A stretch of DNA of 64,000 bases from positions 469,313 to 533,312 of the forward strand of contig NZ_BMGS01000002.1 in assembly GCF_014640315.1 (NCBI RefSeq). The letters run 5' to 3'. Below, in pieces: positions 45,482-61,492 of the stretch. The position numbers were made by a program, and so were the translations under genes. Under the pieces are notes generated by a model. It ran no database searches. It saw only the letters and a list, made by a program, of their open reading frames with translations, and was not told where the DNA came from. This DNA comes from Hymenobacter glacieicola (GTDB lineage: Bacteria > Bacteroidota > Bacteroidia > Cytophagales > Hymenobacteraceae). How positions within the stretch are numbered: position 1 is the first letter of the stretch; each line of letters begins with the position of its first letter.

Positions 45482-46426
45482 CTACTTCAGCAGTTCGTGC
45501 AGCACGGTTTGCATGGAAAACACCCGGTTGCCGGCCTCCTGAATCACCAGGGAGTTCGGCGAATCCAGAATAGCATCCGAAACTTCCACGTTGCGGCGCA
45601 CGGGTAGGCAGTGCAGGAACTTGGCGTCGTTGGTGCCGGCCATATGTTCAGGCGTGAGCATCCAGGCTGGGTCGTTGCTGAGGACCTGGCCGTAGTCGTG
45701 GTAGCTGCTCCAGTTTTTGGCCTGCACGTAGTCGGCGCCTTCCAGGGCTTTCTTCTGGTCGTACTCGATGCGGGCACCCTTCGTGAATTTGGGGTCTAGC
45801 TCGTAGCCCTCGGGGTGAGTGATGACAAAATCTACCCAATCCACTTCCGCGAACCAGTCGCAGAACGAGTTGGGCACGCACTGGGGCAGGGCGCGTACGT
45901 GCGGGGCCCAGGTCAGCACCACTTTCACGCGCTCCTTTTTCTTTGTCTCCGCTACCGTAATCAGGTCGGCAAACGACTGCAGCGGGTGCAGCGTGGCACT
46001 TTCCAGGCTAATAACCGGCACGGTGGCATACGTCAGAATCTTGTTGAAGACTTCCTCGCTGTAGTCGGCCTCCTGGTCCTTGAGCGTGGGGAAGGTGCGT
46101 ACGCCCAGCACGTCGCAGTACTGGCTCATCACGGCAATGGCCTCCTTAATGTGCTCCTGGGTACCGCCGTTCATCACTGCGCCATCGGCCATTTCCAGGG
46201 TCCAGGAATCGGCGCCGGCGTTGAGCACCCAGGCTTGCGCACCCAGGTTGTAGGCCGCCTTTACTGAGCTAAGCCGGGTCCTGAGGCTGGGATTGAAGAA
46301 GATCAGCCCCACGGTTTTGTTCTTGCCGATGTGCTGGTACCCGTACGGATTCGTCTTGATTTCCAGGGCTTGCTTGAGCAGGGCTTTATAGTCGCCCGCA
46401 TCGGCGAAGGAGGTGAAGTTTTTCAT
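45482..46426 (-). CDS. argF': N-acyl-L-ornithine carbamoyltransferase
   Basis: Transfers the carbamoyl group to N-acetyl- or N-succinyl-ornithine, the special arginine step of Bacteroidota and Xanthomonas. The 314-residue protein has the carbamoyl-phosphate site FFNPSLRTRLS (where standard OTC has STRTR), the family-specific AWVLNAGADSW and EMADGAVMNGGTQEHIKEAI loop, and FLHCLPVRRNVEVSDAILD near the end. The difference between acetyl- and succinyl-ornithine use rests on one loop residue, which I cannot assign safely. It is the last gene of the minus-strand arginine arm; a half repeat lies upstream and a CCCTA tract downstream. Confidence 0.92.
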   Translation of the reverse strand: MKNFTSFADAGDYKALLKQALEIKTNPYGYQHIGKNKTVGLIFFNPSLRTRLSSVKAAYNLGAQAWVLNAGADSWTLEMADGAVMNGGTQEHIKEAIAVMSQYCDVLGVRTFPTLKDQEADYSEEVFNKILTYATVPVISLESATLHPLQSFADLITVAETKKKERVKVVLTWAPHVRALPQCVPNSFCDWFAEVDWVDFVITHPEGYELDPKFTKGARIEYDQKKALEGADYVQAKNWSSYHDYGQVLSNDPAWMLTPEHMAGTNDAKFLHCLPVRRNVEVSDAILDSPNSLVIQEAGNRVFSMQTVLHELLK

Positions 46427-46515: not shown

Positions 46516-47151
46516 CTACCTCTTCAGTATTTCAACCTTAATAGGGTGCTTTCTACGATGTTCATAGTACTTGACCGCCTCCCTCTCTACTTCAGCTTTC
46601 GATACAATGGGCCGCCAAGATTTATCTAACATGTATCCATCTTCTGAAATAGCTGGCTGCTCAAAGCTTACAGCAGTTTTCTCATCATCTGGAATCAAGT
46701 AAAAGATCTGATCCAACCGAACTAACGAATTCATGGACGCAAAGCCTGATTCGTGCATTTCCTCTTCAGTTAGTTCCTCACCGCAATTGTCACATGATTT
46801 CTCCCGTGCATTAAAGGCTATGTAGCCACAAACTGGACAAGTTGAGTAAGTGGTACCATTTTTTGCAAGGGCTTTGTCGTGCGTAGATAGAAGAATGGTT
46901 GGTAATGCCGATATAACTATCACACTTGCTAGTACAGCTATACGAACGGCGAAGGACCGTTTATTAGTGAAGTAGTATCCCGCAAAGCCTACTGGACCGA
47001 CAACAAGGCCAGCCAACCCACTGTAGAGAACTTTCATTCCTTTATCGGTGGTGTATTCATTGCCAAACTGCATGGCAATGACTAGAGGTACCACTAAAAA
47101 AGCGCTAACCCAGTATATCTCAACATTAGATTTTGATTGGTCTGATTTCAA
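46516..47151 (-). CDS. Membrane protein with zinc ribbon, unknown
   Basis: A 211-residue protein with three hydrophobic helices (about 12-30, 42-62 and 67-90) followed by a zinc ribbon with two Cys pairs (CPVCGY and CDNCGE) and a soluble C-terminal part rich in Lys, Arg and Glu. No named family is recognised. Lower GC than the arginine genes suggests it was inserted into the cluster, and the remains of a GIY-YIG gene follow directly upstream. Confidence 0.75.
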   Translation of the reverse strand: MKSDQSKSNVEIYWVSAFLVVPLVIAMQFGNEYTTDKGMKVLYSGLAGLVVGPVGFAGYYFTNKRSFAVRIAVLASVIVISALPTILLSTHDKALAKNGTTYSTCPVCGYIAFNAREKSCDNCGEELTEEEMHESGFASMNSLVRLDQIFYLIPDDEKTAVSFEQPAISEDGYMLDKSWRPIVSKAEVEREAVKYYEHRRKHPIKVEILKR

Positions 47152-47618: not shown

Positions 47619-50600
47619 TTACATAGCCTTATACTCGTTCCAGCTCTTAATCTTCAAATCCTGCATTTCCAGAGTGCAGAAGGCTTGGATAAAGGCTTTG
47701 GCCAGACGGGCATTGGTGAGCAGCGGGATGCCGAAGTCGATGGCGGTGCGGCGGATTTTGTAGTCGTTGTCCAGCTCGCCCTTCGAGAGGTTCTTAGGGA
47801 TGTTGATGACCAAGTCGATTTTCTTCTCCTTGAGGTAGGTCAGCACGTTGGGCTCCTGGTAGTCGTCGGGCCAGAAGACGAGGGAGCTGGGCACGTTGTG
47901 TTCGGCAAAGAAGCGGTGCGTGCCCTGGGTGGCGTAAATGACATAGCCACTTTGCACCAGCAGCCGCGCCGATTCCAGCAGGGCTATTTTGGAGAGGATG
48001 GGGCCGCTAGAAATCAGCACCGACTTCTGCGGAATCTTGTAGCCCACGCTCAGCATCGATTTCAGCAGGGCTTCCTCGGCCGTGTCGCCCAGGCAGCCTA
48101 CCTCGCCGGTGCTCACCATGTCCACACGCAGCACGGGGTCGGCGCCGGGCAGGCGGGTAAACGAGAACTGCGGGGCCTTCACACCCACGAAGGGCAGGTC
48201 GTAGACCAGCTCACTTGCGTCGCGCTCCACTTTCTTGCCCAGCAGCACTTGGGTGGCCTTGCGGATAAGGTTGTTGCCCGAAACCTTGGACACAAACGGG
48301 AAGGAGCGGGAAGCGCGGATGTTGCACTCAATCACCCGGATTTCGCGGTTTTTCTCCAGGAACTGGATGTTGAACGGCCCGCTGATTTCGTAGCGCTTGG
48401 CAATCTTTTCGGCAATGACTTTGAGCTTGCGCACTGTGCCCACGTACACGCGCTGGGGCGGGTAGTACATGGTGGCGTCGCCGGAGTGCACGCCGGCAAA
48501 CTCCACGTGCTCGGAAATGGCGTAGCTCACAATTTCGCCCTTGTCGGCCACCGCGTCCAGCTCAATTTCCTTGGCCTCCTGGATAAACTCCGACACTACC
48601 ACCGGATACTCGGCGCTTACTTCGGCCGCCGCTTTCAGGAACGACTCCATTTCAAACGCGTTGGAAACCACGTTCATTGCCGCTCCCGACAGCACGTAGC
48701 TCGGCCGGATCAGCACGGGGTAGCCTACCTCGCCCACAAACTCGAACATAGCGTCCAGGGAAGTCAATTCCTTCCAACGGGGCTGGGCAATGCCCAGCTC
48801 GTCCATGATGCTGCTGAACTTGTGGCGGTTCTCGGCTTCATCAATGCGGGCCGGGGCGGTACCCAAAATAGGCGCCTTGGCGTCGGCCAAGCGGGTAGCG
48901 AGGTTGTTCGGAATCTGGCCGCCGGTGCTCAGGATGACGCCCTGGGGCTGCTCGAACTCCAGAATGTCCATCACCCGCTCGAAGCTCAGCTCCTCGAAGT
49001 ATAGCCGGTCCGACACGTCGTAGTCCGTCGAAACGGTTTCGGGGTTATAGTTGATGATGATGGTTTTATAGCCCTCTTCGGCGGCCGTCTGCACGGCATT
49101 TACCCCGCACCAGTCGAACTCCACGGAGCTACCGATGCGGTACACGCCCGAGCCCAGCACCACGATGGACTTGCTGGTTTCTTGAGCCAGGTCGTTTTCG
49201 GTGCCGTGGTAGGTGCTGTAGAGGTAGTTGGTTTTAGCCGGAAATTCAGCCGCCAGCGTGTCAATCTGCTTGATAACGGGCAGCACGCCCAGGGCTTTGC
49301 GGCGGGCGCGCACCAGCAGCTCGTCGGCTTTCACGTCGCCTTCGCCGAGCAGCTTCACGGCAATTTGCTGGTCGGAGAAACCAGCTTTCTTAGCCTCGCG
49401 CAGTAGGCCAGTTTCCAAGGCACCTAGGCCACTGGCGCGCTTCTCTGCCAGCTTCTTGCCCAGCTCGAAAATGGTGAGCAGACGCTGCAGAAACCAGTGG
49501 TCAATCTTGGTCAGCTCGTGGACCTGCGCCAGGGTATAGCCGGCCTCAAACGCCAGGTTGATGGCGAAGATGCGCTCCTCGTTCGGCTCGCTCAGCAGCT
49601 TGTCGATGGTGGCGTTGTCTACCTGCTCGGGCTTATTAGCCACGAAGCCGCGCTTGCCGGTATCCAGCATGCGCAGGCCCTTCTGGATGGCTTCCTCGAA
49701 GGATTTGCCGATGGCCATGACCTCGCCCACGCTCTTCATGGCCGAGCCAATCTGCCGGTTCACGCCCTCAAACTTGGCCAAATCCCAGCGCGGCAGCTTC
49801 ACCACCACGTAATCCAGGGCCGGCTCGAAGAAGGCCGATGTGGTCTGGGTCACGCTATTTTTCAGCTCCGAGAGCGAGTAGCCCAAACTCAGCTTAGCCG
49901 CCACGAAGGCCAACGGGTAGCCCGTAGCTTTGGAAGCCAGCGCCGAGGAGCGCGACAAGCGGGCATTCACCTCAATCACGCGGTAGTCCTCCGATACGGG
50001 GTCGAGGGCGTACTGAATGTTGCACTCGCCCACGATGCCGAGGTGGCGGATGGTCTTGATGCCGATGCTGCGCAGCTTGTGGTACTCGCGGTTGCTCAAG
50101 GTCTGCGACGGAGCTACCACGATGCTCTCCCCGGTGTGGATACCGATGGGGTCGAAGTTCTCCATGTTGCAGACCGTGATGCAGTTATCGTACTGGTCGC
50201 GCACCACTTCGTACTCCACTTCCTTCCAGCCCTTGAGCGACTCTTCCACCAGAATCTGGTCGGAGGTGGTGAAGGACTTCTGGGCCAGGGCCCGCAGCTC
50301 GTCCATGTTGTTGGCGAAACCACTACCTAGGCCACCCAGCGCAAAGGCCGCCCGCACGATGATGGGGAAACCGATTTTCTCGGCCGCGGCCAGCGCGTCT
50401 TCCATATTGGTCACGGCCACGCTGCGGGCCGAGAGCACGCCAATCTGGTCGAGCTTCTCCTTGAAAATGTCCCGGTCCTCGGTGTCGATGATGCTCTGCA
50501 CGGGCGTGCCCAGCACCTGCACGTTGTACTTCTCGAACACCCCGGCGCGGAACAGGGCCACGGCGCAGTTCAGGGCCGTTTGGCCCCCAAAGGCCACCAG

Positions 50601-50849
50601 AATACCATCGGGCTGCTCCTTTTTGATGACTTCCTCCACGAAGTAGGGCGTCACGGGCAGGAAATACACGTCGTCGGCAATATTGTCCGACGTCTGCACG
50701 GTGGCAATGTTGGGGTTAATGAGGATGGTGCGGATGCCTTCCTCTTTCAGCGCCTTGAGGGCCTGGGAGCCGGAGTAATCGAACTCACCGGCCTCGCCAA
50801 TTTTCAGCGCGCCGGAACCGAGGATGAGAACTTTCTGTGGTTTTTCCAT
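47619..50849 (-). CDS. carB: Carbamoyl-phosphate synthase, large subunit
   Basis: Makes carbamoyl phosphate from bicarbonate, ammonia delivered by CarA, and two ATP, feeding both arginine and pyrimidine synthesis. It has 1076 residues from MEKPQKVLILGSGALKIGEA; a longer 21-codon extension upstream is proline/threonine-rich and improbable. The two homologous ATP-grasp halves are visible: the first starts ILGSGALKIGEAGEFDYSGS, the second LGSGVYRIGSSVEFDWCG. The C-terminal allosteric domain (SVGYKIPQKSVLISSGPI onwards, with YATQGTHRFF) is complete. Length is close to the usual 1070. It lies 93 bp from a small membrane-anchored gene on the same strand. Confidence 0.97.
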   Translation of the reverse strand: MEKPQKVLILGSGALKIGEAGEFDYSGSQALKALKEEGIRTILINPNIATVQTSDNIADDVYFLPVTPYFVEEVIKKEQPDGILVAFGGQTALNCAVALFRAGVFEKYNVQVLGTPVQSIIDTEDRDIFKEKLDQIGVLSARSVAVTNMEDALAAAEKIGFPIIVRAAFALGGLGSGFANNMDELRALAQKSFTTSDQILVEESLKGWKEVEYEVVRDQYDNCITVCNMENFDPIGIHTGESIVVAPSQTLSNREYHKLRSIGIKTIRHLGIVGECNIQYALDPVSEDYRVIEVNARLSRSSALASKATGYPLAFVAAKLSLGYSLSELKNSVTQTTSAFFEPALDYVVVKLPRWDLAKFEGVNRQIGSAMKSVGEVMAIGKSFEEAIQKGLRMLDTGKRGFVANKPEQVDNATIDKLLSEPNEERIFAINLAFEAGYTLAQVHELTKIDHWFLQRLLTIFELGKKLAEKRASGLGALETGLLREAKKAGFSDQQIAVKLLGEGDVKADELLVRARRKALGVLPVIKQIDTLAAEFPAKTNYLYSTYHGTENDLAQETSKSIVVLGSGVYRIGSSVEFDWCGVNAVQTAAEEGYKTIIINYNPETVSTDYDVSDRLYFEELSFERVMDILEFEQPQGVILSTGGQIPNNLATRLADAKAPILGTAPARIDEAENRHKFSSIMDELGIAQPRWKELTSLDAMFEFVGEVGYPVLIRPSYVLSGAAMNVVSNAFEMESFLKAAAEVSAEYPVVVSEFIQEAKEIELDAVADKGEIVSYAISEHVEFAGVHSGDATMYYPPQRVYVGTVRKLKVIAEKIAKRYEISGPFNIQFLEKNREIRVIECNIRASRSFPFVSKVSGNNLIRKATQVLLGKKVERDASELVYDLPFVGVKAPQFSFTRLPGADPVLRVDMVSTGEVGCLGDTAEEALLKSMLSVGYKIPQKSVLISSGPILSKIALLESARLLVQSGYVIYATQGTHRFFAEHNVPSSLVFWPDDYQEPNVLTYLKEKKIDLVINIPKNLSKGELDNDYKIRRTAIDFGIPLLTNARLAKAFIQAFCTLEMQDLKIKSWNEYKAM

Positions 50850-50942
50850 TCTGGGGGTTAGAGTAACAGGCCGCGGGGGCGGTCGTGTTAAAAGGCAGTC
50901 GTGCGCGGCCAACTAAGGCGGTTGGCGCTGAGGAGTGTGCTG

Positions 50943-51871: not shown

Positions 51872-52966
51872 TTAGCTGTCTTGCCCGGCCTTATACTCCG
51901 CAACCGACTTCAGAAAGTCGTCGAACAGGTACTCCGTATCCTCAGGGCCACCGGCGGCTTCGGGGTGGAACTGGGTGGAGAAGAACGGCTTGCTCTTGTG
52001 CTTGATGCCTTCGCAGGTGCCGTCGTTGAGGTTCTCAAACAGCATGGTCCACTCGGCGGGCAGCGTGTCGGTATCCACCGCGAAGCCGTGGTTCTGGCTG
52101 GTGATGTAGCTGCGCTTGGTGCCCGAAAGCAGCACCGGCTGGTTGTGGCTGCGGTGGCCGTATTTCAGCTTGAAGGTGTCGCCGCCCGCCGCCAGGCCCA
52201 TGAGTTGGGAGCCCAGGCAGATGCCGAAGATGGGCTTGTCCTGGCTTAGGGCGGTTTGCAGGTGCTGGATGGTGGCGGTGCACATCTTCGGGTCGCCGGG
52301 GCCGTTGCTCAGGAACAGGCCGTCGTAGTCGAGCTGGGTGAAGTCGTAGTCCCAGGGCACCCGAATCAGCTCCACGTCGCGCTGGAGGAAGCAGCGGATG
52401 ATGTTGGTTTTGGTACCGCAGTCCACTAGCACGATTTTGTGCTGGCCCTGACCGTAGTGCTTTACCTCGGTGGGGCTCACCTGGGCTACCAGGTTGTCCT
52501 GGTTGGGGTCGTGCAGCTCTACGTCCTGCCCCCCGGCCACAATCTTGCCCAGCATGGCGCCCTTCTCCCGCAGGATTTTGGTGAGCATGCGCGTATCCAC
52601 CCCGAAGATGCCGGGGATGTTGTACTCCTTGAGCCAGTCGCCGAGGCTCTTGGCCGCGTTCCAGTGGCTGTGCTCCTCGGAGTAGTAGTTCACTACCAGG
52701 CCGGCAATGTGAATCTTGTCCGACTCGAAAATCTTGGAAATCGACTTGTACAGCTCCTCGCCGGGCACGCCGTAGTTGCCCACCATGGGGTAGGTCAGCA
52801 CCAGAATCTGGCCGGCGAAGGACGGGTCGGTGAGGTTTTCGGGGTAGCCGGTCATGGCCGTGCTGAACACTACCTCGCCCGCGGTCGAAGTAAACGCCCC
52901 GAACGAAGTACCCTCGATTGCAGTGCCGTCTTCGAGAATGAGTTTTACCGATTTAGCGTTTTCCAC
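51872..52966 (-). CDS. carA: Carbamoyl-phosphate synthase, small subunit
   Basis: Glutamine-hydrolysing subunit that channels ammonia to CarB. The 364-residue protein begins SVKLILEDGTAIEGTSFGAF and has the class I amidotransferase triad: nucleophile Cys250 in PIFGICLGSQLMGLA, and the His and Glu in TQFHPEAAGG near the end; KYGHRSHNQPV is also a family signature. It is separated from carB by two small membrane-protein genes. The 530-bp region upstream contains an 11-bp inverted repeat that might be regulatory. Confidence 0.96.
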   Translation of the reverse strand: MENAKSVKLILEDGTAIEGTSFGAFTSTAGEVVFSTAMTGYPENLTDPSFAGQILVLTYPMVGNYGVPGEELYKSISKIFESDKIHIAGLVVNYYSEEHSHWNAAKSLGDWLKEYNIPGIFGVDTRMLTKILREKGAMLGKIVAGGQDVELHDPNQDNLVAQVSPTEVKHYGQGQHKIVLVDCGTKTNIIRCFLQRDVELIRVPWDYDFTQLDYDGLFLSNGPGDPKMCTATIQHLQTALSQDKPIFGICLGSQLMGLAAGGDTFKLKYGHRSHNQPVLLSGTKRSYITSQNHGFAVDTDTLPAEWTMLFENLNDGTCEGIKHKSKPFFSTQFHPEAAGGPEDTEYLFDDFLKSVAEYKAGQDS

Positions 52967-53498: not shown

Positions 53499-54638
53499 TT
53501 ACTTTTTCACCTCGGCCGGAATAAGTGTGTACAGCGCCTGCAGGAACCGGTCAACTTCATCCTTGGTGATATTCAAGGGCGGCAGCAGGCGCAGCACCCC
53601 AGGGTCGGAGGCATTGCCCACGAAGATGTGGCAGTCGGAGAGCAGCTGGTCGCGCAGGTCCTTGATGGGGAAATCGTACTTGATGCCCACCATCAGGCCC
53701 CGGCCGCGGATTTCCTCGGCCCCGGCATTGGCTTCGAGCGCAGTGCGCAGGTAGTCGCCCATTTCGGTGGCGTGGGTTAGCAGGTTTTCCTGCTCGATGA
53801 CTTCCAGCACGGCCAGCGCGGCGGTACAGGCCAGGTGGTTGCCGCCAAAAGTGGTGCCCAGCAGACCGTAGGAGGCTTTCAGTTCCGGCGCAATCAGGAT
53901 GCCGCCGATGGGGAAGCCGTTGCCCATGCCCTTGGCCACCGAAACAACGTCGGGGCGGATGCCGGCGTGCTGGTGGGCAAAGAACTTGCCGCTGCGGCCG
54001 TAGCCGCTCTGCACTTCGTCGGCAATCAGCAGGGCGCCGTACTGTCGGCACAGCGCCGCCAGCCCTTGCAGGAACTCATCGGAAGGCATGATGATGCCCC
54101 CTACCCCCTGAATGGGCTCGATGATGGCCGCGCACACGTCGCCGCCCTGCAGCACCTGCTCTACCGCCGCCAGATCGTACTCCACGAAGGAAATGGCGTG
54201 GCCGGCGTTGAAGGGCGCTACAATTTTGGGGTTATCGGTAGCGGCTACCGTCCCGGAAGTACGGCCGTGGAAGGCGCCCTTGAAGGCCACCACGCGCTTC
54301 TTGCCGGTGTGGAAGGACGCCAGCTTCAGGGCATTCTCGTTGGCCTCGGCCCCAGAGTTGCACAGAAACAGCGAGTAGTCCGCGTAGCCCGACACCTGGC
54401 CCAGCTTCTCGGCCAGCTCCCGCTGAATCGGAATCTGCACCGAGTTGGAGTAGAAGCCGATGTTCTGCAGCTGCTCCGTCAGCCGCTGCACGTAGTGCGG
54501 GTGACTGTGGCCGATGCTGATAACGGCGTGCCCGCCGTAGAAATCCAGGTATTCCTGGCCCTTATCGTCCCAAAGTTTCGCCCCCAGCGCCTTTACCGGC
54601 GTGATATTGACGAGCGGATATACGTTGAAAAGCTCCAT
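53499..54638 (-). CDS. argD: Acetyl(succinyl)ornithine aminotransferase
   Basis: PLP enzyme that makes N-acyl-ornithine from the semialdehyde with glutamate as donor. The 379-residue protein has GGHAVISIGHSHP near the start, NSGAEANENALKLA, AFHGRTSGT, the cofactor Asp in LIADEVQSGYGRSG and the Schiff-base Lys in VVSVAKGMGNGFPIGG. The order argG-argC-argD follows the minus arm, and a palindromic repeat (copy H) separates it from argC. Fold-III aminotransferases of this group may also act on succinylated or lysine-pathway substrates. Confidence 0.94.
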   Translation of the reverse strand: MELFNVYPLVNITPVKALGAKLWDDKGQEYLDFYGGHAVISIGHSHPHYVQRLTEQLQNIGFYSNSVQIPIQRELAEKLGQVSGYADYSLFLCNSGAEANENALKLASFHTGKKRVVAFKGAFHGRTSGTVAATDNPKIVAPFNAGHAISFVEYDLAAVEQVLQGGDVCAAIIEPIQGVGGIIMPSDEFLQGLAALCRQYGALLIADEVQSGYGRSGKFFAHQHAGIRPDVVSVAKGMGNGFPIGGILIAPELKASYGLLGTTFGGNHLACTAALAVLEVIEQENLLTHATEMGDYLRTALEANAGAEEIRGRGLMVGIKYDFPIKDLRDQLLSDCHIFVGNASDPGVLRLLPPLNITKDEVDRFLQALYTLIPAEVKK

Positions 54639-54819: not shown

Positions 54820-55800
54820 TTAAAACAGCCCGGCTTTCAGGCCTAGGCCCGTCGTTTCGGGTAGGCCAAACAGCAGGTTCATGTTCTGCACCGCTTGGCC
54901 GGAAGCGCCTTTCACGAGGTTGTCAATAACCGAGGTGATGAGCAGTTGCTTGCCGAATTTCTGCACGTGCAGCAGGCACTTGTTGGTGTTCACTACCTGC
55001 TTCAAGTGAATTTCCTGGTCCGAAACCGTAGTGAACGGCGCATCAGCGTAGAATTTCCGGTAAAGCTCCTGCGCTTCGTCCTGGGTCAGGTCTGACGGCG
55101 TGTAGACGCTGGCGAAGATGCCCCGGGTGAAGTTGCCGCGGTAGGGAATGAAGTGCAGGGCGCTGTCCAGCTGCGGCTGCAGCTGCGCCAGGCTCTCCCC
55201 GATTTCGCCGAGGTGCTGGTGGGTGAAGGGCTTGTAGATGGACACATTATTGCTGCGCCAGGAGAAGTGCACCGTCTCCGACAAGCTCTGCCCCGCACCC
55301 GTGCTGCCCGTTATAGCCGACACATGCACGTCATCCGCGAGCTTGCCGGCCTGCGCCAGGGGTAGCAGGGCCAGCTGAATGGCCGTGGCGAAGCAGCCGG
55401 GGTTGGCAATGCTCTGGGCCTGCTGGATGCGGCTCCGGTTCAGCTCCGGCAACCCGTACACGAACTCCCGCTCCCCGAATTCGGCGTCGGCTTCCAGGCG
55501 GAAGTCGTTGCTGAGGTCGATGATGTGCGTTGTTTCGGGCAGCTCGTGCTGGGTCAGCCAAGCCTTGGAGTTGCCGTGGCCCAGGCACAGAAATACTACG
55601 TCCTCATCCCCGGCCAGCTCCGACGTAAACACCAGGTCCGTATCGCCCACCAAATCATCGTGGACTTGGTAGACGGGGTTACCGGCGTTAGAAGAGCTGA
55701 CGATGGCGCCCAACTCCGCGTACTCATGGTGCAGCAGGATGCGGACCAGTTCCCCGGCCGTGTAGCCGGCCCCGCCTACAATACCAACCTTAATTTTCAT
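54820..55800 (-). CDS. argC: N-acetyl-gamma-glutamyl-phosphate reductase
   Basis: NADPH-dependent reductase that makes the acyl-glutamate semialdehyde. It has 326 residues from MKIKVGIVGGAGYTAGE; a longer frame inside argG is not the true start. The dinucleotide motif GGAGYTAGE is at the N-terminus and the catalytic Cys136 in IANPGCFATA. Its start codon lies within the last codons of argG (11-bp overlap), so translation is coupled. Confidence 0.95.
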   Translation of the reverse strand: MKIKVGIVGGAGYTAGELVRILLHHEYAELGAIVSSSNAGNPVYQVHDDLVGDTDLVFTSELAGDEDVVFLCLGHGNSKAWLTQHELPETTHIIDLSNDFRLEADAEFGEREFVYGLPELNRSRIQQAQSIANPGCFATAIQLALLPLAQAGKLADDVHVSAITGSTGAGQSLSETVHFSWRSNNVSIYKPFTHQHLGEIGESLAQLQPQLDSALHFIPYRGNFTRGIFASVYTPSDLTQDEAQELYRKFYADAPFTTVSDQEIHLKQVVNTNKCLLHVQKFGKQLLITSVIDNLVKGASGQAVQNMNLLFGLPETTGLGLKAGLF

Positions 55801-56983
55801 CGTTAAACGAGGCGTGAATGCGCAGCTGGTTGCTGAATATTTTGATGAAGCCTTTCGCGTCGCGCGAGTCCCAGGCATTGTTTTCCTCGCCGTAGGTCGC
55901 CACTTTCGACTGCATCATATCGAAGTCGGACTCAATGCCCAGCAGCTCAAACTGGTAAGGCTTCAGCGTCACGTACACCGTGCCCGACACGCGGGCCTGC
56001 GACGACTCCAAGAAAGCCTCCATGTCGCGCATCACCGGGTCGAGGTATTGAGCCTCGTGCAGCAGCGTGCCGTACCAGTTCGCTACGTAGTCTTTGTGCA
56101 GTTGCTGCCAGCGGCTGAGCACATGCTTCTCCAACAAATGGTGGCCTTTGATGAGAATCAGCGGGGCCGGAGCCTCAAACCCCACGCGACCCTTGATACC
56201 GAGAATCGTGTCGCCCACGTGCACGTCGCGGCCGATGGCGTACTGGCCGGCCAGCTCGTTCAGGGCCACAATCAGGTCCACCGGGTTCATTGCTTCGCCG
56301 TTCAGGGCTACCGGCTCGCCTTCTTCGAAGGTGATGCTGATTTCCTGGGGCTCAGTTTTGCTGAGCTGAGTTGGCCAAGCTGATTCCGGCAAGCCCTGGC
56401 GGGAAGTCAGGGTTTCAACCCCGCCTACGCTAGTGCCCCAGATGCCTTTGTTGATAGAGTACTTGGCCTTTTCCCAGCTCATCTCTACCCCGTTCTGTTG
56501 CAGATACTCAATCTCCTGCTGGCGCGACAGGCCCAGGTCGCGGATGGGCGTAATGATTTCCGTATCGGGCGAAATCACCGAGAAGGCTACATCGAAGCGC
56601 ACTTGGTCGTTGCCGGCGCCGGTGCTGCCGTGGGCAATGTAGTCAGCCTTGTTTTCGCGGGCGTACTCGGCCAGCGCCAAGCTCTGAAACATTCGCTCCG
56701 CGCTGACGCTCAGCGGATACGTGTCGTTTTTCAGAATATTACCTGCCAGCAGATAGCGCAAACATTCCTGGTAGAACCGCTCCGTTACATCAATTACCTC
56801 GTGGCGCTTGGAGCCCATTTCGTAGGCGCGCTTTTCGATGCCAGCTAGCTCTTCCTGCGAGAAACCACCCGAGTTAACAATAACCGTGTGGACTTCCAGG
56901 CCCAGCTCTTTCGTCAGATAGACGACGCAATAGGATGTATCCAATCCGCCGCTGTAGGCGAGAACTACCTTTTTTTGAGACAT
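55790..56983 (-). CDS. argG: Argininosuccinate synthase
   Basis: ATP-dependent ligase joining citrulline and aspartate. The 397-residue protein begins KKVVLAYSGGLDTSYCVVYL, the PP-loop that holds ATP, followed by AHGSTGAGNDQVRFD and, later, GKGIW-like YSINKGIWGTSVGG and ITFEEGEPVALNG. It lies 69 bp after the GNAT gene and overlaps argC by 11 bp. Confidence 0.95.
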   Translation of the reverse strand: MSQKKVVLAYSGGLDTSYCVVYLTKELGLEVHTVIVNSGGFSQEELAGIEKRAYEMGSKRHEVIDVTERFYQECLRYLLAGNILKNDTYPLSVSAERMFQSLALAEYARENKADYIAHGSTGAGNDQVRFDVAFSVISPDTEIITPIRDLGLSRQQEIEYLQQNGVEMSWEKAKYSINKGIWGTSVGGVETLTSRQGLPESAWPTQLSKTEPQEISITFEEGEPVALNGEAMNPVDLIVALNELAGQYAIGRDVHVGDTILGIKGRVGFEAPAPLILIKGHHLLEKHVLSRWQQLHKDYVANWYGTLLHEAQYLDPVMRDMEAFLESSQARVSGTVYVTLKPYQFELLGIESDFDMMQSKVATYGEENNAWDSRDAKGFIKIFSNQLRIHASFNDEN

Positions 56984-57052: not shown

Positions 57053-57625
57053 TTAACCTTGCTCCTGACTCAGAATTTCAATGGTTTGCTGGCTGAATTT
57101 GTCATTCAGGTTGTCGTACACCATACCCGTGCACAGGCACATTTTGCGCTGATTTTCCATCAGGATGCCGTAGTTTTTACAGCTTGAGCAGCCTTTCCAA
57201 AAGTCGTCGCTTTGGGTGAGCTCAGGGAAAGTTACCGGCCGGTACCCCAGCTCATTGTTGATCTTCATCACGGCCGCTGAGGTAGTGATACCGAAGATTT
57301 TAGCTTCCGGATATTTCGTGCGCGAGAGCTCAAACACGCGGTGCTTGATGGCGCGCCCCAGTCCCTCCTTCCGGAGCTCGGTATTTACAATCAAGCCCGA
57401 GTTGACCACGAACTTGTTGTCCTCAAAGGTTTCGATGTAGCAGAAGCCAGCCAACTGCTCATCAAGGAAGGCAATGATAGAATCGCCCCGCTCCATCTTC
57501 TTTTTCAGATAGTTAGGGTCGCGCTTGGCAATGCCAACGCCGCGCGATTTGGCAGATTCCTCATACCACTGACAAAGGGTATCCACGTACTGCACATCGG
57601 CAGCATGGGCGACTCGTAAAAGCAT
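57053..57625 (-). CDS. GNAT acetyltransferase, probable N-acetylglutamate synthase
   Basis: A 190-residue single-domain GNAT protein. The acetyl-CoA site is RKEGLGRAI (motif A, about 85-93) after the strand VVNSGLIVNTELR. The C-terminal part carries four cysteines, CSSC at 146-149 and CLC at 163-165, which could bind a metal. It lies first in the minus-strand arginine arm. No standard ArgA or ArgJ is present in the cluster, so it is the best candidate for the first acylation step; this rests on context, not on a demonstrated family. Start at MLLRVAHAADV, because the upstream 20 codons are not conserved in character. Confidence 0.75.
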   Translation of the reverse strand: MLLRVAHAADVQYVDTLCQWYEESAKSRGVGIAKRDPNYLKKKMERGDSIIAFLDEQLAGFCYIETFEDNKFVVNSGLIVNTELRKEGLGRAIKHRVFELSRTKYPEAKIFGITTSAAVMKINNELGYRPVTFPELTQSDDFWKGCSSCKNYGILMENQRKMCLCTGMVYDNLNDKFSQQTIEILSQEQG

Positions 57626-58239
57626 GGTCGAAGCTCGGTTGGTTGCCTTGGTATACGGCAACAGACACGGGAAGACGATAGACAAAGGGCTGAAAACGCC
57701 GTTTTTAGCTGAAGCTAGGCCATTGCCAGCGCAGAAGCTGGTGGCAGAAATAGAGCCCGGAAAAGCAAGGAGGCCAGGACGGCAAACCGCCGGAGCAGTT
57801 AGGCGAAATTTGGCCGGGGGAGGTGCACGGAGGCTTACACTCGTGTCAATTCGTTATTCGTAGAACCTTTCTTCAGTAGGGCGTTACTTTCAGAGCCCTA
57901 TCGTCGGTTGTTATTGCACTAAAAATGCCGACGAGATATTGCATGCCAGCGTTTAAGCTGGCATTGTTCGCACGACCAGGTTGGGTCGTCGCAGAAGCGC
58001 AATAGAAGAGAGACGAATCATGAAGACTGCCGGTGGGCAAGGGAGGTGTTTCTGCGGTTTAAAATGAATAGGACCGCTAAATCGTTGCAAAACTAGATGT
58101 TTTTTTTCGGAAACTTTGCTGGCCCGGTGGCAAAAAAAGCGCCGACCTGTGCGCTGTTTGCCTAGGCAGTTAGCCGGGCTGCACCTTCATTTTGGCGGCA
58201 ATTGCCCCTGTACGGCCCGTTTTTCTCCTCTACTTTTTT
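57626..58239. promoter_or_regulatory. Divergent control region of the arginine arms
   Basis: About 600 bp between the GNAT and argB starts. It contains two consecutive hairpins on the plus strand: TGCCAGC-GTTTAA-GCTGGCA at 57944-57963 and ACGACC ... GGTCGT at 57972-57989. A minus-strand TAGTTTTG (58088-58095) fits a -7 box loosely. No ArgR-like box was recognised. Both arms are probably regulated here. Confidence 0.45.
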
Positions 58240-59025
58240 ATGCGCGAAGGCCTGAAAATTTTCAAGATTGGCGGTGGTATCATCGACGATGCCGCTGAGT
58301 TAAGCCAATTTCTGACCCAGTTTGCCCAGGTGCCAGGCCACAAAATGCTGGTGCACGGCGGCGGCAAAGGTGCTAGTCAAATGCTGGCTGATTTGGGCAT
58401 TGAGCCGAAAATGGTGCAAGGCCGCCGCATCACCGACGCCCCTACCCTCGACATCGTGACCATGTTTTACGCGGGCAAAACCAACAAGCAAGTAGTGGCG
58501 CTGCTACAAGCCAGCGGCGTCCATGCCCTGGGCCTTTCCGGCGCCGACGGCAACGCCATCCGGGCCGTAAAGCGGCCGGTACAGGACATTGACTACGGTT
58601 TTGTGGGCAACCTGCCCGAGGGTAGCATCAACGCGCAGCTGCTGGAGTTGCTGCTGCAGGCGGGCATCACGCCGGTGTTCTGTGCCATTACCCACGACGG
58701 CCGCGGCCAGCTGCTCAACACCAACGCCGACACCATTGCCGCTACCCTGGCCCGAGCGCTGGCCGGCCAGTATGAGGTGGAGCTGCACTTCTGCTTCGAG
58801 AAGGACGGCGTGTTGCGCGACATCAACGACGACACCTCCGTGATACCGCAGATTACCGCCCAGCAGTACCAGCACCTGAAAGCCGAGGGCATTATTGCCG
58901 CCGGCATGGTGCCCAAGCTGGACAACGCCTTTGCCGCCCTGGAGGCTGGCGTGGAACGGGTGGTAATTGAAAACGCCCTAAAAATCAATGAACCCGTAAA
59001 AACTGTGCTATGTCGGAGCAACTAG
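58240..59025 (+). CDS. argB: N-acetylglutamate kinase
   Basis: Amino-acid-kinase-family enzyme, second arginine step. The 261-residue protein has KIGGGIIDD, the glycine-rich HGGGKGASQML, NTNADTIAATLARAL for the substrate and FEKDGVLRDINDDTSVIPQI for ATP. The start at MREGLKIFKIGGG was chosen because it directly precedes the first strand. Its end overlaps argE by 16 bp. Confidence 0.95.
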   Translation: MREGLKIFKIGGGIIDDAAELSQFLTQFAQVPGHKMLVHGGGKGASQMLADLGIEPKMVQGRRITDAPTLDIVTMFYAGKTNKQVVALLQASGVHALGLSGADGNAIRAVKRPVQDIDYGFVGNLPEGSINAQLLELLLQAGITPVFCAITHDGRGQLLNTNADTIAATLARALAGQYEVELHFCFEKDGVLRDINDDTSVIPQITAQQYQHLKAEGIIAAGMVPKLDNAFAALEAGVERVVIENALKINEPVKTVLCRSN

Positions 59026-60080
59026 CGCGGCTGACCGAGGACGCCATTGCGCTGCTGCAAGAGCTGATCAGGACGCCTTCCCTTTCGCGGGAAGAAGCCC
59101 AAACGGCGGAGTTGATTTTCCGGTTTCTGGCCTCCCACGGCGCCCAGCCCCACCGAGACAAAAACAACGTCTGGGCCGTATCGAAGCACGTTGACGCCAG
59201 CAAGCCCACCATTCTGCTGAACTCCCACCATGACACGGTAAAGCCCGGCACCACCTGGACCTACGACCCGTTCGGGGCCACCGTGGAAGGCGACAAACTA
59301 ACCGGCCTGGGCAGCAATGACGCGGGCGCTTCGGCCGTGAGCTTACTCGCCACGTTTTTGCACTTGTACAAGCGCACTGACCTGGCTTACAACCTGATTT
59401 GCGCCATTACGGCGGAGGAGGAAGTGTCGGGCGCGAACGGTATCCGAAGTGTGCTACCCCAGTTAGGACCTATCGACTTGGGCATTGTGGGCGAGCCAAC
59501 ACAGATGGACCTAGCCATTGCTGAAAAAGGTTTGGTAGTCCTCGACTGCGTGGCCCACGGCCGCACCGGCCACGCCGCCCGGGAAGAGGGCGACAATGCT
59601 TTGTACAAAGCCGTGACCGATATTCGCTGGTTTGAGCAGTTCCGCTTTCCGCAGGTTTCACCGCTGCTGGGCCCCGTGAAGATGACGGTAACCCAGATTC
59701 AGGCAGGCTCCCAGCACAATGTGGTGCCCGACCGGTGCACTTTCGTGGTGGATGTGCGCACAAACGAGTGCTACGCCAACCAGGAGGTAGTGGAACTGGT
59801 GCGGCAGCACGTCACCTCCGACGTTACCCCCCGCTCCACTCACCTCAACTCCTCCCGCATCGACCTGAGCCACCCCCTCGTGCAGCGGGGCGTAGCCCAG
59901 GGCCGGCGCCCGTTCGGCTCGGCTACCCTCTCCGACCAAAGCATGATGCCCTTTACCACCGTCAAAGTCGGCCCCGGCGACTCGGCCCGCTCGCACACGC
60001 CCGATGAGTATATTCTACTTAGTGAAATCCGGGCGGGCGTGCAGGGCTACGTAGCTTTGCTGGACGGGCTGCGGTTATGA
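59010..60080 (+). CDS. argE: ArgE-like M20 deacylase (probable N-acyl-citrulline deacylase)
   Basis: Metallopeptidase-fold deacylase of 356 residues. Metal and catalytic residues: ILLNSHHDTVKPG, GLGSNDAGASA, and AITAEEEVSG with the catalytic Glu pair, and VGEPTQMD. Because the pathway here uses ArgF' on acyl-ornithine, the likely substrate is N-acetyl- or N-succinyl-citrulline rather than acetylornithine, as in Xanthomonas. It overlaps argB by 16 bp, so the two are translationally coupled. Confidence 0.88.
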   Translation: MSEQLARLTEDAIALLQELIRTPSLSREEAQTAELIFRFLASHGAQPHRDKNNVWAVSKHVDASKPTILLNSHHDTVKPGTTWTYDPFGATVEGDKLTGLGSNDAGASAVSLLATFLHLYKRTDLAYNLICAITAEEEVSGANGIRSVLPQLGPIDLGIVGEPTQMDLAIAEKGLVVLDCVAHGRTGHAAREEGDNALYKAVTDIRWFEQFRFPQVSPLLGPVKMTVTQIQAGSQHNVVPDRCTFVVDVRTNECYANQEVVELVRQHVTSDVTPRSTHLNSSRIDLSHPLVQRGVAQGRRPFGSATLSDQSMMPFTTVKVGPGDSARSHTPDEYILLSEIRAGVQGYVALLDGLRL

Positions 60081-60084
60081 GGTA

Positions 60085-60179
60085 GCGCGAACGGGGTAGT
60101 TCGCGTGCCTCCAGCGTAACCTCTTTGCATATTCCACGGTCACATAGAACCGTACACACGCGAACCACCCCGTTCGCGC
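60085..60179. repeat. Pair of inverted 23-bp elements, each itself palindromic
   Basis: The element at 60085-60107 and its complement at 60157-60179 agree in 22 of 23 positions. Each element is also palindromic (CGCGAAC-GGGGTA-GTTCGCG). This is unlike the GTCATTCCGAGC family. It fills the gap between argE and argH. Confidence 0.8.
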
Positions 60180-60193
60180 CACACCATCACGAC

Positions 60194-61492
60194 ATGAAAA
60201 TCTGGGATAAGGGCATTGCCGTCGATAAAAAGATTGAACAATTTACCGTGGGCCGCGACCGGGAACTGGATAGGTACCTGGCGCAATTCGACGTGCAGGC
60301 TTCCAAAGCCCAGGCTAACATGCTGGCCCGGGCCGGTCTGCTTTCCGAAGCGGAAAACCAGCAGCTGCAGCAGGGCCTGACGGAGCTGGCCGCGCAAATT
60401 GAAGACGGTACCTTTCTCATCGAGGAAGACTTTGAGGATGTACATTCCAAAATTGAGTACTACCTGACGGAGAAGTTCGGTGACGCGGGCAAGAAAATTC
60501 ACACGGCCCGCTCCCGCAACGACCAAGTGCTCACGGCTATTCAGCTGTTTCTGAAGGACTACACCGCGCGCGCTACCGCCAAAACGTTGGAGCTGGTGCA
60601 GGTGCTGCTGCAGAAAGCCGAAACCCACCAAGCCGACCTGATGCCGGGCTACACCCACTTCCAGGCCGCCATGCCCAGCTCCTTTGGGCTGTGGTTTTCG
60701 GCTTACGCGGAGCACCTATTGCTGGACCTGGCCTTGTTCGAGGCGGCCCACGCCGTGGCCGACCAAAACCCGCTGGGCTCGGGCGCGGGCTTCGGCAGCT
60801 CCTTTCCCATCGACCGACTTCAGACTACGCGGGAAATGGGCTTCGGTAATCTGGCCGTGAGCAGCGTGGGCGCCCAGATGCTGCGGGGCAAAACGGAAAA
60901 AACGGTGGCGTTTGCGTTGGCAGGCATGGCCGCTACCCTGGCCAAAATGGCCTACGACCTGGTGCTCTACAACGGGCAGGACATGGCGTTTGTGGAGCTG
61001 CCGGCAGCTTTTACCACCGGCTCCAGCATTATGCCCCACAAGAAAAACCCCGACGTGTTTGAGCTGATTCGGGCCCGCTGCAACGCCTTGCAGGCCCTGC
61101 CCAACACGCTAATGCTGGCCACCAGCAACCTACCCAGCGGCTACCACCGCGACTTCCAGATTCTGAAGGAGCTACTCTTCGAGCCCATGACGCAATTTCT
61201 GGACATTCTCGACATTGTGCTGTTTGCCTTACCCCAGCTGCGCATCAAGCCCAACCTGCTGAACCAGGAGAAATACGACGCCGTGTTCACCGTGGAGAAT
61301 ATCAACCAGCTTATACAAGCCGGCACCCCGTTCCGCACCGCCTACAAGCAGGTGGGCCAAGCTGTGGAAGAAGGCAGCTACGTGCCCCACAAGGACTTTC
61401 ACACGACGCACCTAGGTAGCGTGCACAACCTCGGGCTGGCCGAAATTCAAGCGAAAGTAGACCGGTTCAAAGAGAATACCCGCATGCGCTAA
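60194..61492 (+). CDS. argH: Argininosuccinate lyase
   Basis: Last arginine step, splitting argininosuccinate to arginine and fumarate. The 432-residue protein starts MKIWDKGIAVDKKIEQFT and carries EDVHSKIEYYLTE, HTARSRNDQVLTA, GYTHFQAAMPSSFGLW and the fumarase/ASL signature GSSIMPHKKNPD with the catalytic Ser. The ATG was set after the repeat pair; an upstream in-frame start lies inside the repeat. It ends the plus-strand arm. Confidence 0.96.
   Translation: MKIWDKGIAVDKKIEQFTVGRDRELDRYLAQFDVQASKAQANMLARAGLLSEAENQQLQQGLTELAAQIEDGTFLIEEDFEDVHSKIEYYLTEKFGDAGKKIHTARSRNDQVLTAIQLFLKDYTARATAKTLELVQVLLQKAETHQADLMPGYTHFQAAMPSSFGLWFSAYAEHLLLDLALFEAAHAVADQNPLGSGAGFGSSFPIDRLQTTREMGFGNLAVSSVGAQMLRGKTEKTVAFALAGMAATLAKMAYDLVLYNGQDMAFVELPAAFTTGSSIMPHKKNPDVFELIRARCNALQALPNTLMLATSNLPSGYHRDFQILKELLFEPMTQFLDILDIVLFALPQLRIKPNLLNQEKYDAVFTVENINQLIQAGTPFRTAYKQVGQAVEEGSYVPHKDFHTTHLGSVHNLGLAEIQAKVDRFKENTRMR

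Follow-up and report, generated by a model that had tools for sequence, protein, structure and literature searches.

The arginine cluster in the window, which is the whole 64,000-nucleotide stretch of Hymenobacter glacieicola DNA that was analysed, raises the question of which enzyme acylates glutamate at the start of the pathway. A sequence-only reading of the window had found every step of arginine synthesis except a recognised N-acetylglutamate synthase, and had proposed that a cysteine-bearing GNAT leading the minus arm of the cluster takes the place of ArgA. Our best explanation, to which we give a probability of about 0.8, is that this GNAT belongs to the ArgA2 family and catalyses the first step of arginine synthesis as an N-acylglutamate synthase, with succinyl-CoA as the most likely donor and a structural zinc ion as the most likely occupant of its cysteine site. 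It builds on the gene itself, its neighbours, the predicted fold, the phyletic pattern and the invariance of the cysteines, from which we infer the substrate, the donor and the metal.

The GNAT gene, its neighbours and its distribution

The gene, predicted from gene order, fold model and phyletic pattern to be of the argA2 type and to encode an N-succinylglutamate (or N-acetylglutamate) synthase, lies at 57053..57625 on the minus strand. Its reading frame is intact, running from an ATG at 57625 to a stop codon at 57053-57055 and encoding 190 residues. The start is supported by the alignment with the closest named relatives, which begins at residue 1; an alternative TTG start at 57685 is purely mechanical and the gene call can do without it. 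Among the 80 best-matching of at least 582 relatives, these are Hymenobacter proteins with identities of up to 90%. A search of the window's genome gave no further close copy, the next match reaching only E 0.072.

As proposed, the gene stands at the head of the minus arm of the cluster, which both its reading frame and the gene order bear out. After a gap of 69 bases it is followed by argG (argininosuccinate synthase, 55790..56983), argC (N-acyl-gamma-glutamyl-phosphate reductase, 54820..55878, with a listed start that is perhaps too far upstream), argD (N-acylornithine aminotransferase, 53499..54638), carA (carbamoyl-phosphate synthase small subunit, 51872..52966), carB (large subunit, 47619..50912, listed with a TTG start, an ATG lying at 50849) and argF (N-succinylornithine transcarbamylase type, 45482..46426, 10.6 kb downstream of the GNAT, best PDB matches 2g7m, 1js1 and 2fg6), all on the minus strand. 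On the opposite strand, from 58192, lie argB (N-acylglutamate kinase, 58192..59025), an argE-like M20 deacylase (59010..60080) and argH (argininosuccinate lyase, 60125..61492). Six of these genes score over an NCBIfam cut-off: argB (TIGR00761), argG (TIGR00032), argC (TIGR01850), argH (TIGR00838), carA (TIGR01368) and carB (TIGR01369, searched from 50858). Among the 25 matches listed for each, argD and argE have matches below cut-offs only, argD with TIGR00707 at 367.3 of 410.05 bits and argE at family level (best 25 of 48); by analogy with BT3549, the latter is a probable N-succinylcitrulline desuccinylase. An open reading frame at 46516-47151 (minus strand), between argF and carB, carries two CxxC pairs (CPVC and CDNC) after hydrophobic stretches. 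Among the loci of named relatives, argG directly follows the GNAT on the same strand in 70/80 (the 80 top-ranking of at least 582 relatives, several of these loci ending at contig ends), and the association of the two genes is thus more than chance.

The cluster does lack a recognised N-acetylglutamate synthase, and a separate ArgA or ArgJ elsewhere in the genome, which would have spoken against the proposed replacement, was looked for as well: neither ArgA (TIGR01890) nor ArgJ (PF01960, best 12.1 bits vs 32) scored over the curated cut-offs in this genome, whose listed completeness is 100%. PF01960 was over its cut-off in 10/14 control genomes, and TIGR01890 in 1/14, which makes the latter a stringent test that could miss a divergent ArgA; PF04768, which matched 1/14 controls and none over cut-off, is unsuited as a test for bacterial ArgA. 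The genome contains other GNATs, the best of which scores 1.1e-4 against ArgA. The GNAT at 57053-57625 is itself not a classical ArgA, having 190 residues and no kinase-like domain, and no match to TIGR01890 is listed for it at E 0.001.

In Pfam and NCBIfam the protein comes up as no more than a weak GNAT, the closest Pfam score being 20.3 bits against a gathering score of 20.7, and a PDB search with its sequence returned only distant GNATs (best E 0.025). Its fold and CoA motif place it in the GNAT superfamily even though the Pfam scores stay under gathering. The motif, R-x-x-G-x-G/A, is well kept (R85 in 130/130 matches, G88 in 122/130, and A or G at position 90 in 128/130), and a structural model with a mean pLDDT of 89 was obtained from the window protein together with sequences from 43 of the 80 named loci (44 in all). 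The best match of this model is the N-acetylglutamate synthase 2r8v (Z 16.6, rmsd 2.5, 149 residues aligned), which also comes top in Foldseek. The acetyltransferase PA2271 (9cr5, Z 15.9) is tied with it, and 5yge, titled 'ArgA complexed with AceCoA and glutamate' (Z 15.6, rmsd 2.3, 140 aligned), lies 1.0 below 2r8v. Since PA2271 and Ard1 (Z 15.4) come close behind the N-acetylglutamate synthases, fold alone does not settle the substrate.

The distribution of the gene adds to this. In a sample of 296 genomes of the window's phylum, the GNAT (E 1e-5 or better) occurs in 124, a relative of the window ArgF (E 1e-40) in 145, and ArgJ in 120; 53/296 have neither the GNAT nor ArgJ. All GNAT genomes (124/124) also carry the window-type ArgF, and only one of the 124 (G227) has ArgJ, in counts that are uncorrected for relatedness between genomes. 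The pattern by which ArgA2 is recognised, co-occurrence with a transcarbamylase of the ArgF3 type in genomes without ArgA or ArgJ, is thus found here, the absence of ArgA being read in the window's own genome. These co-occurrence counts are new support for a first-step role of the ArgA2-family GNAT, and on gene order and phyletic pattern the window protein is very probably an ArgA2. That the GNAT replaces ArgA is therefore well supported by gene order, by the absence of any ArgA or ArgJ over cut-off and by the fold match, and such a replacement is already known from the literature (PMC7311316, PMC9026213, PMC5317091, in their accessible parts). The GNAT closes the apparent gap in the arginine pathway of this genome without new biology.

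Acyl donor and the four cysteines

In the proposed pathway, the single GNAT domain would acylate the amino group of L-glutamate with an acyl-CoA as donor, most likely succinyl-CoA, so that N-succinylglutamate is formed. ArgB, ArgC and ArgD would convert this to N-succinylornithine, which the window ArgF would carbamoylate, and the ArgE-like hydrolase would then strip the succinate before ArgG and ArgH complete arginine. The choice of donor draws on ArgF. According to the available text of a review, three residues separate acetyl- from succinylornithine transcarbamylase, the succinyl type having A/S/P/V/Q, P and V/I/E where acetylornithine transcarbamylase has E92, N185 and K302 (PMC4581275). 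The window ArgF, with Q90, P181 and E281, is of the succinyl type at all three positions, both when aligned with solved acetyl- and succinylornithine transcarbamylase chains and by position. We take 1js1, 2fg6 and 2g7m to be B. fragilis chains and 3kzc to be from X. campestris. The ArgF beside the named relatives is of the succinyl type at all three positions in 27/27 cases (27 of the 80 loci had an ArgF in reach). Among the 124 ArgA2 genomes of the phylum sample, the reading of residues covered the window's own ArgF and the 13 genomes whose ArgF is more distant, and in these 13 the type is succinyl in 13/13 at positions 90 and 281 and in 11/13 at 181, where two have Ala. The idea that ArgA2 genomes with a distant ArgF work with acetylated intermediates was rejected on these same residues.

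Because the window ArgF has the residues of an N-succinylornithine transcarbamylase, succinyl-CoA appears likelier than acetyl-CoA as the acyl donor of the GNAT. The other possibility, an N-acetylglutamate synthase proper with acetyl-CoA as donor and acetylated intermediates throughout, seems unlikely to us but has evidence of its own: the closest fold is an N-acetylglutamate synthase, and Cabys_1732, a Caldithrix abyssi protein stated to be more than 50% identical to BT3761, was reported as an N-acetylglutamate synthase in the accessible text, so that the donor may be acetyl-CoA after all (PMC7311316, PMC5317091). It also has the NCBIfam name of the window ArgF, N-acetylornithine carbamoyltransferase (PRK04523, 292.6 bits vs a cut-off of 288), which the three diagnostic residues mark as a likely misannotation. 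Against it stand those residues, both in the window and in the 13 genomes with a distant ArgF. Complementation of an E. coli argA mutant could mislead should the enzyme accept only succinyl-CoA.

The second question concerns the cysteines. The codons of the CSSC (residues 146-149) and CLC (163-165) motifs lie at 57131..57190 on the minus strand, and the model places Cys146, 149, 163 and 165, a probable metal site, between the strands 129-131 and 166-170, where the prediction is confident. On the model, these two strands would be the sixth and seventh of the GNAT fold, which corrects the earlier view that the cysteines are not part of it. All four are kept in 130/130 matches from 124 genomes and are among 22 invariant positions, while two other cysteines vary (C18 present in 89/130 and C62 in 121/130). 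A count of 80/80 among the named relatives carries no weight here: CLC was the core of one of the two patterns used in the scan, and the 80 are the top-ranking part of at least 582 relatives. Likewise, the notion that part of the ArgA2 family lacks the cysteines was rejected: the three misses behind a count of 27/30 came from the second pattern of the filter, and all three proteins carry the four.

Six genomes (loci L120, L121, L122, L123, L124 and L125) have a second, diverged ArgA2 copy with 44-51% identity; the match in L123 crosses a stop codon behind the cysteines. The second copies have lost Tyr39 (6/6), Ala33 (6/6) and Glu65 (5/6), all three invariant in the other 124, yet they keep the four cysteines in 6/6. 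That the cysteines outlast other conserved residues in these copies speaks for a structural metal site rather than a switch. It is most likely that the four cysteines bind a structural metal, and we picture them as holding one zinc ion between the sixth and seventh strands. Naming zinc rather than iron is a guess on general grounds; Hymenobacter lives aerobically, and anaerobic groups carry the GNAT gene too.

The sequence-only reading had seen in the cysteines a metal site, perhaps with a regulatory role. Its first half is plausible, all four being invariant; the second finds no support, as the second copies suggest a structural role. A redox- or iron-responsive site, whether an iron-sulfur cluster or a switch, that gates arginine synthesis is accordingly doubtful. 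Invariance of all four cysteines would suit it, and so would the lack of the arginine repressor C-terminal domain PF02863, which was not found in this genome at E 1 and which matched 10/14 controls, including Bacteroides ihuae, making some other control of arginine synthesis possible; but six second copies that keep their cysteines despite the loss of Tyr39, Ala33 and mostly Glu65 fit a structural site better. The four-cysteine site, invariant as it is, stands out as a clear feature of a family that occurs in 124/296 sampled genomes of the phylum. That the GNAT acts on some other substrate, a protein or a small amine, and merely travels with the operon while the real first enzyme lies elsewhere is very improbable: GNATs are diverse, the Pfam matches stay under gathering scores and the genome has the other GNATs mentioned above, but the tight gene order, the phyletic pattern and the published fitness data for BT3761 (PMC7311316, PMC9026213, accessible text) all speak against it.

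A P-loop protein in genomes without the GNAT

Twenty-one of the 296 genomes carry the window-type ArgF but no GNAT. A profile search for a hidden ArgA2, run without a positive control, found none at E 0.01 (0/21), no ArgA was over the TIGR01890 cut-off in any of them (0/21), and ArgJ is absent from 20/21, being present in G223. In 12/12 loci read (11 of the 21 genomes plus G030), a P-loop protein of about 350 residues is encoded between argG and argC. It lies on the minus strand at L242:11797-12840, L243:11408-12487, L246:11821-13005 and L247:11270-12349, and occupies the same place in L240, L241, L244, L245, L260, L262, L263 and L264. A profile built from four copies gave strong matches (E 1.2e-143 or better) in 22/296 genomes, namely all 21 and G030, which encodes the P-loop protein within its arg operon and an ArgA2 elsewhere and is the only one of the 124 ArgA2 genomes with a strong match. 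At E 1e-10 the profile matched 28 genomes, with six weak matches (1.6e-24 to 5.7e-18), five of these in ArgA2 genomes.

The P-loop protein weakly resembles DUF1611, BioD and MobB, the DUF1611 match being below the Pfam gathering score. Its profile matched no solved structure at E 0.001, and up to E 5 it returned six weak dethiobiotin-synthetase matches and one unrelated entry. DgcN, a DUF1611 protein, acetylates D-glutamate. The P-loop protein has no name of its own to search by, and a search of the open-licence literature through the distant relatives DgcN and DUF1611 found no paper on it. Stand-alone GNATs resembling the acetyltransferase part of ArgA occur in 6/21 of these genomes (G008, G050, G058, G155, G195 and G231; TIGR01890, E 4.5e-12 to 1.4e-7, none over cut-off) and could be short ArgA enzymes, which leaves the P-loop protein a candidate only. 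The ArgF of these genomes fits the residues listed in the accessible part of the review in 6/7 cases read, G223 having Thr at position 90, outside that list (PMC4581275). We regard the chances as evenly balanced that two or more unrelated enzymes open the succinyl-type arginine pathway: the GNAT in 124/145 genomes and, in the other 21, the P-loop protein, which would then represent a new fold class among N-acylglutamate synthases and might be driven by ATP. The protein bears on a step for which other genomes are still without a recognised enzyme.

Comparison with known first enzymes

The name ArgA2 comes from a gut-microbiome reconstruction, the accessible text of which describes a GNAT in the arginine operon, together with ArgF3, in 190 Bacteroidetes genomes (PMC9026213). 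Its Bacteroides thetaiotaomicron member, BT3761, was assigned a role in arginine synthesis, probably as N-succinylglutamate synthase, in the GapMind study (PMC7311316), and fitness data in Bacteroides show that growth without arginine requires it (PMC7311316, PMC9026213); it is also named in a figure legend concerning a different enzyme family (PMC9765024). The window GNAT and ArgA2/BT3761 have in common that a GNAT gene sits in the arginine operon, that the Bacteroidetes genome around it lacks ArgA, and that the ArgF is of the succinylornithine type, ArgF3 (PMC9026213). Judging by the locus tags of BT3758 (aminotransferase) and BT3760 (a candidate argininosuccinate synthase), from which adjacency is read, the genes would be ordered as in the window. 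The likeness is thus one of gene order and phyletic pattern, the cysteines going unmentioned in the accessible text of the two papers (PMC7311316, PMC9026213). A literature search on cysteines or zinc in the ArgA2 family, judged by title and the start of the abstract, found no related paper.

Cabys_1732 was described as a "newly characterized" N-acetylglutamate synthase on the basis of unpublished results, and was reported as the first enzyme of the locus argAGCBEH (PMC5317091). It shares with the window GNAT, a predicted first enzyme, its place in an arg locus, and it differs in its reported activity as an N-acetylglutamate synthase and in coming from another phylum (PMC5317091). Its gene was described in 2017 as confined to Bacteroidetes and C. 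abyssi (PMC5317091, available text), and ArgA2 is apparently spread more widely than that. Records that carry the labels Ignavibacteria, Kapaibacterium, Balneolaceae and Rhodothermia contain relatives too (L086, L096, L099, L110, L066, L075 and L113).

The two-domain ArgA of Neisseria gonorrhoeae (2r8v) shares with the window protein the GNAT domain that is its best structural match, and differs in having an amino-acid-kinase domain, which the window gene lacks, and in an identity of only 17%. Closer in architecture are the short N-acetylglutamate synthases, the 'ArgA' of 5yge, which we take to be the M. tuberculosis enzyme, and Rv2747 of Mycobacterium tuberculosis (5yo2); 5yge differs in sharing 14% identity with the window GNAT over the alignment, and both, like the window protein, consist of a single GNAT domain with no kinase domain.
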